A DNA stretch of 52,297 nt from Gammaproteobacteria bacterium (GTDB taxonomy: Bacteria; Pseudomonadota; Gammaproteobacteria; Steroidobacterales; Steroidobacteraceae). A program made the position numbers and the translations under genes. Positions 33,892 to 36,502 of the stretch are shown piece by piece (position 1 is the stretch's first letter; each line of letters starts with the position of its first letter). The stretch is from the NCBI GenBank assembly GCA_021323735.1, contig JAJPKM010000019.1, positions 1 through 52,297 of the forward strand, in the 5' to 3' direction. The notes under the pieces were generated by a model. It was not told the DNA's origin, made no database searches, and worked only from the letters and a program-made list of their open reading frames with translations.

Positions 33892-34889
33892 AGCCCTTCA
33901 AGGCAGGCCCGGCCCGCCAGCGCGGCGTCGCGCTCATCATCGCGCTCATTCTCGTGGCGCTGGCGACCATACTGGCCACGAAGTTGAGCTTCGACGGGTT
34001 TCTCGAATTACGCCGCACCACGGGGGTGCTTGCCGCGGAGCAGGCACTGCACTTTGGCCTGGGCGCCGAGGCGCTGGCGGCCGACGTGCTCATGCAGGAT
34101 CTGCAGACCAGCGCCAACAACACCACCTTGGCCGGCCCCTGGGCTCAGGTGACCCAGCCCCTGCCCATCACCCCGGACAGCAATCCGGAAGGCGAGCCCA
34201 TCGGCACCATGCAGGGTGCCTTGGAAGACATGCAGGGGCGCTTCAACTTGAACACTCTCGCCCGCTTGGGGTCCGACGGCATGCAAGATCCGCTGCCGCT
34301 GCAACAGTTTCAGCGCCTGCTGGCGTCGGTGGGCGTCGAGCCGAAGTGGGCGGGACTGGCGCGCGACTGGCTGGATCAAGACGATGTCGTAGGAAATCCT
34401 GATGGCGCGGAAGATGCCGTCTACACCTCGCAGACACCGCCCTACCGCACCGCCAATTGGCCGATGGTGTCGCCCACGGAGCTGATGAATCTTCCAGGCT
34501 TCGGGGCAGACCGTTACCGCAAGATCGCTCCTTACGTCACGGCCCTGCCGAACGCGAACACCCAGATCAATCTATGTACCGCGCCCGCTCTGGTGCTGGA
34601 GAGCCTGGTGGAAGGCTTGAACGGCGAATGGTCGAACAATCCCGCGGTGCTCGCCAATGGCCGCAAGGCGGGGTGCTTCCCCGACAAACAGACCTTCACC
34701 AACGTCGCCACGAGTTTTGCCGGACCGACTGCCATGGCAAAAATCGGCAATCCCATTGGCACCACCAGTTCCTACTTCCAGCTCACCACGCGCGTCATGC
34801 TTGGCACTACGGAGTTCACCTTGTACAGTCTTTTGGTTCGCGGTCCGACGAAGGTCACGCCGCTGCTGCGCTCATTTGGGACACCATAA
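33888..34889 (+). CDS. gspK: T2SS minor pseudopilin GspK
   Basis: This 333-aa protein starts MKPFKAGPARQRGVALIIAL. As in other GspK proteins, the cleavage site is followed by VALIIALILVALATILA and lacks the Glu at +5. Later GALEDMQGRFNLNTLARLG, DWLDQDDVVGNPDGAEDAVY and NWPMVSPTELMNLPGFGADR match the two-helix GspK domain. It caps the pseudopilus tip. Its ATG overlaps the gspJ stop. The next gene does not follow directly: a 344-bp hairpin block separates it from gspL. Confidence 0.94.
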   Translation: MKPFKAGPARQRGVALIIALILVALATILATKLSFDGFLELRRTTGVLAAEQALHFGLGAEALAADVLMQDLQTSANNTTLAGPWAQVTQPLPITPDSNPEGEPIGTMQGALEDMQGRFNLNTLARLGSDGMQDPLPLQQFQRLLASVGVEPKWAGLARDWLDQDDVVGNPDGAEDAVYTSQTPPYRTANWPMVSPTELMNLPGFGADRYRKIAPYVTALPNANTQINLCTAPALVLESLVEGLNGEWSNNPAVLANGRKAGCFPDKQTFTNVATSFAGPTAMAKIGNPIGTTSSYFQLTTRVMLGTTEFTLYSLLVRGPTKVTPLLRSFGTP

Positions 34890-34933
34890 GCTTAATTATT
34901 CATGCACGCTTGGTATCATGCACGTAGGCCGAA

Positions 34934-35196
34934 TTGGACGGGTATTTTCCGGACCGCCGTGAATCCATTGCGCTACGCAGTCCCTGCTTCGCGCAAGCCC
35001 TGGGTGGCCATCCATGGCCACCCGCGCGACGCATGCGTCGCGCCCATGGAGGCTGCGGGAAAAACTTGCGACGCGATGCCATCCTGCATCGCTGCAAGCC
35101 GGGGTTCGCCATCCCTGGCGAACCCGCTCGGCGCATGCGCCGAGCCCTGTTTTTCACGCTCCGGAAAATACCCGTCCAACCCGCCCTCCTTCGGGT
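34934..35196. repeat. Nested hairpin block between gspK and gspL
   Basis: The gap 34890-35233 holds a dense set of inverted repeats. An outer perfect 20-bp pair is TTGGACGGGTATTTTCCGGA (34934-34953) with its reverse complement (35160-35179). Inside lie six stems: 34968-34996 (arms TTGCGC, inner GCAG/CTGC), 35002-35023 (10-bp arms), 35024-35043 (perfect 20-bp palindrome), 35065-35098 (arms CTTGC and GCGATGC), 35102-35125 (10-bp arms, loop TCCC) and 35126-35145 (perfect 20-bp palindrome). A further 5-bp stem, ACCCG/CGGGT, is at 35179-35196. No gene inside is credible, although frames stay open on both strands. It could be a REP/MITE-like element or a structured RNA. I do not recognise it as a named family. 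Confidence 0.8.
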
Positions 35197-35233
35197 CTAT
35201 TCCGTTGCCCATAAATTGTTCAGGCTAAGCTTC

Positions 35234-36502
35234 ATGCCGAAATCATTGCTGTTACGCCTCCCGCCCTTGGGTCAAGAAGAGACCGAATGGCTCACGCTCG
35301 ACGAAGCCGGTGCCCCCACGCCCACCCGGCAGCGCGGATCTTTGAGTCTGGCTGCCGCCGTATGGCGCAACGGCCGGCTGGTAGTCCTTGCGCCGGCGAC
35401 GCAGATTTTATTGGCCGAGCCGGAGCTGCCGCCCGGCAGCGGGGCGAAACTCGCGCGCGCCGTCCCCTTCGCACTCGAGGAGCAGTTGACCGAGGATGTC
35501 GATCTGTTGAGCTTTGCCATCGGCCGCCGCCGCGCCAGTGCCGGCACGCCGGTGGCGGTGGTATCGCGCTCAGTACTGCAGGGCTGGATCGCCGAGCTCA
35601 CCGCCGCCGGATTGAATCCGGAAGTGATTTATCCGGACATCTCGCTCATGCCGGAGAATCCCGGCCAGACCGTGTTGTGGCTGGAGAACGAGCGGCTCGC
35701 GGTGCGCCGTCCCGGCGCCCTGCCCTTTGCCGTCGAGCTCTCGCCCGTGAGGGAAGCGCTGGTGGTAGCGGGGGTGATTGCGGATCCGCTCGAGCCCTCG
35801 GCGGAACCCAAGGCGAAGGAAAGCGCCATCCTCTACGTCACGCGTGAGGACTGGGTGCGAGTGCAAGGCGACTTCGAAGAGTTGCTGGAGGATTTCGAGT
35901 CGCTCAAGGTGCAATTGCTGGCGGATGGACCGCTGCCTTGGCTGGCGCGGGGCCTCAATAATCCGGATGCAGTCAATCTGTTGCAGGGAGAGTTTTCTCG
36001 GACCGTTGACTACGGTGCACGATGGCGTCAGTGGCGCCTTGCCGCCGGGCTCGCCGCGGCGCTATTGCTGATCCACGTTGCCGCGCAGGCACTGCAGATC
36101 CGCAACGCCAAGCATGAATCCGCCGCCCTGGACGGGGAAATCTCCCAGGTATTCTCGTCGGCCATGCCCGGCGATACCCCGAGCAACCCGCGCCGGCAAA
36201 TGCAATCGAAGCTGGAGAAGATCCGCAAGTCCGGTGCCGGTCCGCAGTACTTTCTGCGCACGTTGCAAACCTTGAGTGGCGCGCTGGCGGTAACGCCGAA
36301 GACCACCATCAGCGCCATGAGTTATCGGGACGATTCGCTCGACATGACGGTGAGCGCGCCCAGCCTCGCTGCACTCTCGCAGCTCACGCAATTCGCGGGC
36401 AAGGAGGGGCTCACCGCCGAGATTCAATCCTCGAATCCCGTCGCTGCCGGTGTCGAAGCGCACCTTCACGTGCGCGGCCAGTCGGGCAAGGCGCACCGAT
36501 GA
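35234..36502 (+). CDS. gspL: T2SS inner-membrane platform protein GspL
   Basis: This 422-aa bitopic protein links the ATPase to the pseudopilus. It has an N-terminal cytoplasmic actin-like domain (LAEPELPPGSGAKLARAVPF, ALEEQLTEDVDLLSFAIG), the NLLQGEFSRTVDYGARWRQW stretch just before the membrane helix LAAGLAAALLLIHVAAQAL, and a periplasmic ferredoxin-like domain. The ATG at 35234 was chosen because the family sequence begins there (MPKSLLLRLPP). The open frame upstream runs through the hairpin block and is not family-like. Its end overlaps gspM (ATGA). Confidence 0.92.
   Translation: MPKSLLLRLPPLGQEETEWLTLDEAGAPTPTRQRGSLSLAAAVWRNGRLVVLAPATQILLAEPELPPGSGAKLARAVPFALEEQLTEDVDLLSFAIGRRRASAGTPVAVVSRSVLQGWIAELTAAGLNPEVIYPDISLMPENPGQTVLWLENERLAVRRPGALPFAVELSPVREALVVAGVIADPLEPSAEPKAKESAILYVTREDWVRVQGDFEELLEDFESLKVQLLADGPLPWLARGLNNPDAVNLLQGEFSRTVDYGARWRQWRLAAGLAAALLLIHVAAQALQIRNAKHESAALDGEISQVFSSAMPGDTPSNPRRQMQSKLEKIRKSGAGPQYFLRTLQTLSGALAVTPKTTISAMSYRDDSLDMTVSAPSLAALSQLTQFAGKEGLTAEIQSSNPVAAGVEAHLHVRGQSGKAHR

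Follow-up and report, generated by a model that had tools for sequence, protein, structure and literature searches.

The question raised by this locus is why, in a type II secretion (T2SS) operon, gspK and gspL are separated by 344 bp that are filled with nested hairpins. The window, namely the whole stretch of 52,297 nucleotides that was analyzed, carries gspG, H, I, J, K, L, M, and N, which were identified with Pfam (GspH slightly under the cut-off), and the gap runs from the gspK stop codon TAA (34887-34889) to the gspL start at 35234. The two perfect 20-bp palindromes described in the first-pass annotation (35024-35043 and 35126-35145) were recovered at their positions, as was the outer inverted repeat that frames the block (34934-34953 and 35160-35179), perfect over 20 bp. 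This repeat extends imperfectly to 31 nt at 87% (34926-34956 and 35157-35187). With a minimum length of 18 nt and a maximum distance of 400 nt, 16 inverted pairs were detected in the whole window, and this repeat is the longest of them. RNA folding of 34900-35230 gave -168.9 kcal/mol (z = -8.6), which was equaled by 0 of 100 shuffles, and folding of 34926-35187 gave z-values of -10.95 on the + strand and -11.1 on the - strand (0/200 shuffles per strand). The block had been proposed to be a MITE-like or REP-like insertion, a structured RNA, or an attenuator that sets the ratio of tip to platform proteins.

A BLAST search with 34900-35230 gave 24 matches in its own genome (4.19 Mb, 58 contigs), itself included, and 16 further matching regions were inspected. 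In the short copies, the two arms P1 and P1' flank two hairpins, P2 (GCC-GTGAA-TCC-ATCCAT-GGA-GGC) and P3 (GGGAAAAAC-GTCC-TGTTTTTC). The sequence of P1 varies among the copies, with changes matched on both arms (L021, L026, L028, L029, and L031). Extra blocks were located in other copies, namely module A in P2 (L019 and L021) and module B in P3 (L020 and L022, both left-truncated), and both modules occur together in the window copy. When they were cut out of the window copy at T^CC, a host of 195 bases was obtained, of which positions 3-193 aligned with the short copy L031 with 160 of 187 aligned bases identical. The host element of approximately 190 bp is composed of the long stem P1 and a three-way-junction tip with the hairpins P2 and P3, which hold TCC in their loops. 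The whole element exceeds the block noted at first, as it begins at the gspK stop codon (34887) and ends at approximately 35228, and its parts are as follows.

34887..35228, no strand assigned: whole compound element with the two flanking TAA, of which the left is the gspK stop codon; placed from copy similarity beyond the stem flanks, the alignment of the host with L031, and the short gap of relatives, with the exact ends set by eye.
34926..34956, + strand: 5' arm of the outer stem P1 (34934-34953 perfect).
35157..35187, + strand: 3' arm of the outer stem P1 (35160-35179 perfect).
34956..34968, + strand: 5' half of the host hairpin P2, up to the T of the split loop; from the module-removal cut.
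34969..35043, + strand: module A, 75 bp, three hairpins (h1 34968-34996, h2 35002-35023, h3 35024-35043), between T and CC of the P2 loop.
35044..35053, + strand: 3' half of the host hairpin P2, from the CC of the split loop; from the module-removal cut.
35055..35066, + strand: 5' half of the host hairpin P3, up to the T of the split loop; from the module-removal cut.
35067..35145, + strand: module B, 79 bp, three hairpins (h1 35066-35097, h2 35102-35125, h3 35126-35145), between T and CC of the P3 loop.
35146..35159, + strand: 3' half of the host hairpin P3, from the CC of the split loop; from the module-removal cut.
35219..35228, + strand: right end of the element, TTCAGGCTAA; from the sequence.

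The AGG in the right end lies 9 nt upstream of the gspL ATG and could serve as the gspL ribosome-binding site. Read upstream, the gspL frame continues without a stop codon across the right-hand portion of the element as far as a TTG at 34934 (34934-36502), which is probably due to chance. By eye, TAA(GCTT) is present at both ends of the element in the window and TAG or a similar triplet in other copies, suggesting a target-site duplication (TAR). Terminal inverted repeats TAGCCTGAAC...GTTCAGGCTA are likewise suggested by eye in several copies, and would be degenerate in the window.

The gap without the block was observed in all 20 relatives having gspL, a gene present in 21 of the 23 genus genomes, own included. 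The distance from the gspK stop to the gspL start was 3-9 nt in 19 of these relatives and 25 nt in one (L062). The insertion at gspK-gspL is private to the window's genome, and the block is therefore not a conserved control of T2SS in the genus. Ten copies of the own genome were tested for the reading frames at their boundaries. The stop codon at the left boundary (TAG or TAA; TGA in L020) closes an ORF that runs for 150 codons or more in eight of them, and at the right boundary a stop on the reverse strand ends such an ORF in five, so that the element tends toward gene ends.

Each module consists of three hairpins, which are h1 (TTGCG...CGCAA), h2 (GGGTnGCC-ATCCnT-GGCnACCC), and h3 (a palindrome around GCATGC). 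An alignment of 20 module sequences contained compensatory changes in 13 of the 21 predicted pairs. The modules nest in one another's loops up to three deep, and their removal restored CCATCCATGG once in L037 (module in module) and twice in L042 (three deep). All five T^CC cuts made (window, L037, and L042) restored an uninterrupted hairpin loop. At the T^CC joints, either zero bases are duplicated or a duplication is masked by microhomology. A module within the P2 loop of a base element was also found in another family (L251, genome G118), and at least two copies of genome G287 hold a different hairpin insert in P3. Free-standing modules with a different type of flank lie between genes (e.g., L040 and L043).

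Several further arrangements were observed around these repeats. In G010 and G021 (L040, L043, L044, and L041), modules sit in a different host of short hairpins, e.g., CTAATTCGGCC...GGCCGAATT, with TAG or TAA near the ends. Another hairpin repeat, also with GGA in its loops (...GGATGGCATGAATGCAGATTTTGCAGGAGCAAAAATCTGC...), occurs repeatedly in 400 kb of G287 (L125-L144), sometimes within the P3 loop of base element copies. Clusters of two or more modules per locus occur in G349 and G106 (L262:570-787 and 1109-1178; L292; L293; L285), and a part of a group II intron (RF02005) lies approximately 1 kb from a module in G212 (L257:2611-2919).

The window sequence, used as a query, matched 9 of 40 genomes, own included; the remaining eight all came from the 22 further genus members, and none of the 17 genomes outside the genus matched. 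Covariance models, which were scored on the best 150 first-look candidates per genome, detected the base element in 5 and the module in 8 of the 23 genus genomes. With the pattern CCGTGAANNCRTCCNTGNNNGCT, the core of the base family, here denoted alpha, was detected in 29 of 369 genomes of the class, with up to 326 copies in one of them (G287); the backward control of this pattern gave 0 among the matches listed. Three of the core matches were single ones with a poor outer stem (L096, L111, and L118). The module model matched 26 of the 369 class genomes under stricter filters. An exact 18-nt core was present in 20 loci of named genomes, of which L076, L077, and L091 alone look real by eye and the other 17 look like chance; the G005 locus L049 lies within L077 (JAJXYR010000109.1, MAG). 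In plasmids and phages, BLAST gave no match to the window element, and in plasmids none to a G287 copy. On viral contigs, 20 matches to the core pattern lacked the three-way fold when folded and were judged by eye to be chance matches in coding sequence, and the module pattern gave 0 matches.

The structure is conserved across the class. A gap-free alignment, A3, was made of 17 class-wide copies of equal length and layout; L096, L111, and L118 (poor P1), L110, and L115 were left out of the class alignment, and the wider alignment A2 was also made without L098 and L120. In A3, 94.3% of the cells were paired, compared with 35.7-43.4% when the partner was slid by 1-3 columns. Both-sided changes occurred in 25 of the 32 pairs, and the covariation score was reached by 0 of 500 shuffles. 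Outer stems of unrelated sequence still pair, with a mean of 13.1 Watson-Crick pairs out of 15 in 33 copies versus 8.4 when the arms were swapped; for 42 copies of G287, which form families, these values were 11.1 and 9.4. Across 56 non-redundant copies of the class, the median P1 length was 25.5 bp (range 5-33), and lengths of 28-30 bp were frequent. The idea that the P1 arms are host terminators entered by the core was rejected since no T-run follows the stem (non-redundant class stems): T per 8 nt after the stem was 1.9 versus 1.7 in the flanks, and A on the other side was 1.3 versus 1.6. A P1 arm copied from elsewhere was also sought in one element, whose 25-nt arm (G104; at most 3 mismatches) was found at its two arms only.

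The strand under selection can be read from the mismatches in P1, because a folded strand tolerates mainly G.U and G.A, which appear as A.C and T.C on the opposite strand. The copies for this test were drawn from the top of each genome's list of places and from 400 kb of G287, giving 133 cores from 24 genomes. A P1 with 11 or more of 15 positions paired was required, so that 114 cores were kept and 19 were dropped, and related copies were thinned, without a tree, to 62 non-redundant stems. On the strand reading TCC, A.C occurred 37 times versus 9 for G.T (binomial p = 4e-5), and T.C/C.T occurred 20 times versus 3 for G.A/A.G. In the 114 cores, the A.C:G.T ratio was 35:8 and 36:4 for the two directions of the right-hand gene and 15:2 with no gene near. 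Because the mismatches of the TCC strand favor A.C and T.C, the GGA-reading strand is the selected folded strand. These counts indicate that the GGA strand of the class-wide base family is selected as a folded single strand, which may be RNA or single-stranded DNA (ssDNA). The class-wide modules exhibited no strand bias (A.C 9 versus G.T 13; deduplicated rows, 52 of 56 module matches). Where the neighboring genes lie in tandem, the sense strand is the TCC strand in 27 cases versus 11, and likewise in the window, where the GGA strand is antisense to gsp. The structured RNA proposed for the block is partly supported, by strong class-wide covariation and a one-strand mismatch bias, but the favored strand is antisense to gsp and may act as ssDNA.

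The loops of the GGA strand resemble the binding sites of the RNA-binding protein CsrA/RsmA. The P3 loop, which lies outside the search pattern, reads CANGGANG on this strand in all 17 rows of A3, while some P3 loops are one base shorter or longer in A2. Among copies with a good stem, all 29 from the class and from named genomes and 28 of 30 from G287 had the complementary TCC at the P3 loop. The P2 loop also fits the CsrA/RsmA motif, but it belonged to the search pattern. In PMC7652899, an ANGGAN hexaloop and a SELEX consensus are described for CsrA, and CANGGANG matches both as given there. The CsrA SELEX hairpins mostly have four or fewer base pairs, and the stems of alpha are longer. Four loops with GGA occur on the - strand of the block in the window. 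The best Rfam match in the block was the RsmA-related RsmW, also on the - strand, at 22.6 bits versus a threshold of 52. CsrB, RsmY/Z, and RsmW share with this strand the presence of several ANGGA(N) loops; they are single regulated sRNA genes, whereas alpha is a set of dispersed repeats. A csrA gene was detected in all 23 genus genomes. Across the class, it was detected in 26 of 29 core carriers versus 287 of 340 other genomes (Fisher p = 0.59), i.e., without association; the carriers lacking a csrA match were G047, G234, and G381, the last two by absence among the matches listed. The number of csrA paralogues in the genus correlated with copy number at rho = 0.54, with p = 0.12 when genome size was allowed for. 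The window's own genome (G000) has seven CsrA-family matches (contigs C38, C4, C22, C44, C10, C47, and C18), and other genus members have 1-5. Judging from the loop sequences, we tentatively suggest that the GGA strand might be an RNA offering ANGGAN hairpins to CsrA/RsmA dimers in a sponge-like manner.

We consider it likely that the block is a compound, non-autonomous, self-nesting mobile repeat, which inserts into loops at T^CC and whose GGA strand is selected. Dispersed copies, a private insertion, exact loop junctions, nesting, covariation, and the strand bias of the base element are the observations behind this reading; the anatomy and the insertion rule are well supported, which does not apply to the mover and the function. 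A base element of approximately 190 bp would have entered directly after the gspK stop codon, in the window's genome only. Afterward, the loops of P2 and P3 would each have received one three-hairpin module, placed precisely between the T and the CC of their TCC. Such a module brings the same type of loop, so that each insertion provides a fresh target and the element can grow by self-nesting, presumably moved by an enzyme supplied in trans. In outline, this agrees with the MITE-like insertion proposed at first, given the dispersed copies, the gap empty in 20 of 20 relatives, and the sites at gene ends, and the ends and the duplication of such an element are suggested by eye. The secretion operon is the accidental address of the block. 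Sense RNA in the gsp operon would merely form a very stable barrier that ends the stop-start coupling of gspK and gspL, and a side effect of the block on the operon is possible. In a wider and rather doubtful extension, alpha might belong to a class-wide superfamily of structured mobile repeats growing by self-nesting, in which hairpin modules target TCC (GGA) loops, those of modules included; the GGA strand would be kept folded as RNA because its loops capture CsrA/RsmA, and the repeats would be mobile regulator sponges, either selfish or domesticated.

The compound mobile repeat has to be weighed against three other explanations. One of them, which we regard as unlikely, assumes that an HUH/Y1 transposase of the REP/RAYT or IS200/IS605 type recognizes the hairpins as ssDNA, so that the GGA strand is bound and moved and has no role as RNA. 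Loop-specific insertion and a one-strand bias are compatible with it, and G.T and G.A are the better tolerated mismatches in DNA, too. Y1 transposase genes (PF01797) were detected in 14 of 17 core-carrying class genomes, only carriers having been tested, but Y1_Tnp was found in 0 of 23 genus genomes, own included, and in none of the carriers G355, G118, and G277, and there is no GTAG/GTGG head. It is very unlikely that the block serves to regulate the T2SS, whether as an RNA or as an attenuator, by reducing gspL-N compared with gspG-K. The intergenic RNA fold is indeed very stable, the stop-start spacing of the relatives is lost, and one terminator-like stem exists (module B h3 followed by CCTGTTTTTC). 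However, this count of 1 does not exceed the shuffles (mean 0.8), the block is missing in all 20 relatives, and the element adjoins many unrelated genes. The control of the tip-to-platform ratio suggested in the first-pass annotation has no support other than this stem.

The most improbable explanation is a chance or decaying sequence, in which pairing is kept by DNA-level copying between the arms (quasi-palindrome correction) and no folded strand is selected. The arms do change in step among the copies of one genome, as template switching could also achieve, and the modules have no strand bias. Dispersed related copies and a core and structure conserved class-wide argue against it, and the strand-biased mismatches are unlike the expected outcome of a symmetric DNA correction. 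Small structured repeats are common in bacteria, and their movement and RNA action are largely open. For the compound mobile repeat considered here, the insertion rule is legible base by base (T^CC in a loop), each insertion restores a target of its own kind, and the selected strand can be told from the mismatches. Two questions become testable, namely the identity of the loop-inserting enzyme and the titration of CsrA/RsmA by dispersed repeats, and a covariation-supported family absent from Rfam 15 is supplied.

At the gathering score, Rfam 15 gave no match in the whole window or in the block. It gave only tRNAs in 140 kb of G287, and only tRNAs and the group II intron part in nine class loci, none of them on the repeats. 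No description of the element was found in full-text searches of open-access literature; the sequence strings of the core and module led to apparently unrelated work, with 0 occurrences of GTGAATACGTCC and GTGAATACATCC among the matches listed. Alpha resembles REP/BIME/REPIN repeats in being palindromic, intergenic, of high copy number in some genomes, and arranged in composites, and differs from them in its three-way junction, its long outer stem, and its modules nested in loops rather than set side by side. A REP head GT(A/G)G before the palindrome is given in PMC2817692, whereas the base preceding GG in A3 changes together with the base it pairs with, so that no such head is conserved. Together with the absence of Y1 transposase from all 23 genus genomes, this means that the block is not REP-like in the strict sense, contrary to one of the initial suggestions. 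Like alpha, ERIC (IRU, RU-1) is a short intergenic repeat that is non-coding, present in multiple copies, and MITE-like, and it contains a long hairpin. In PMC2759123 and PMC2267715, ERIC is described as one long stem-loop with TATACCC...GGGTATA ends and a TA duplication, and the latter states that Yersinia ERICs act as RNA hairpins on adjacent genes. The E. coli ERIC loci indeed folded as one long stem, whereas alpha forms a three-way junction. Homology was not supported, as the alpha model R1 gave no match on the ERIC stretch of L300-L302 (E. coli) with filters off and E up to 10. The longest word common to ERIC and the window element is 8 nt, and GTGAATCC is shared; in one E. coli ERIC (L300:960-1087), GTGAATCC and GGGGTGAGCG are similar to stretches found in alpha and in the class-wide modules.

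Among organellar sequences, mitochondrial GC clusters and hairpin elements are also small, and some insert into one another; to our knowledge, these nested GC clusters are unrelated in sequence to alpha. The general features of a MITE were observed, as the element is short and non-coding, has dispersed copies, and leaves an empty site in relatives. It thus resembles MITEs such as YPAL and NEMIS/Correia as a short non-autonomous insertion with possibly inverted ends, and differs from them in that its inner core is conserved class-wide, the sequence of its outer stem is free, and its modules nest in themselves.
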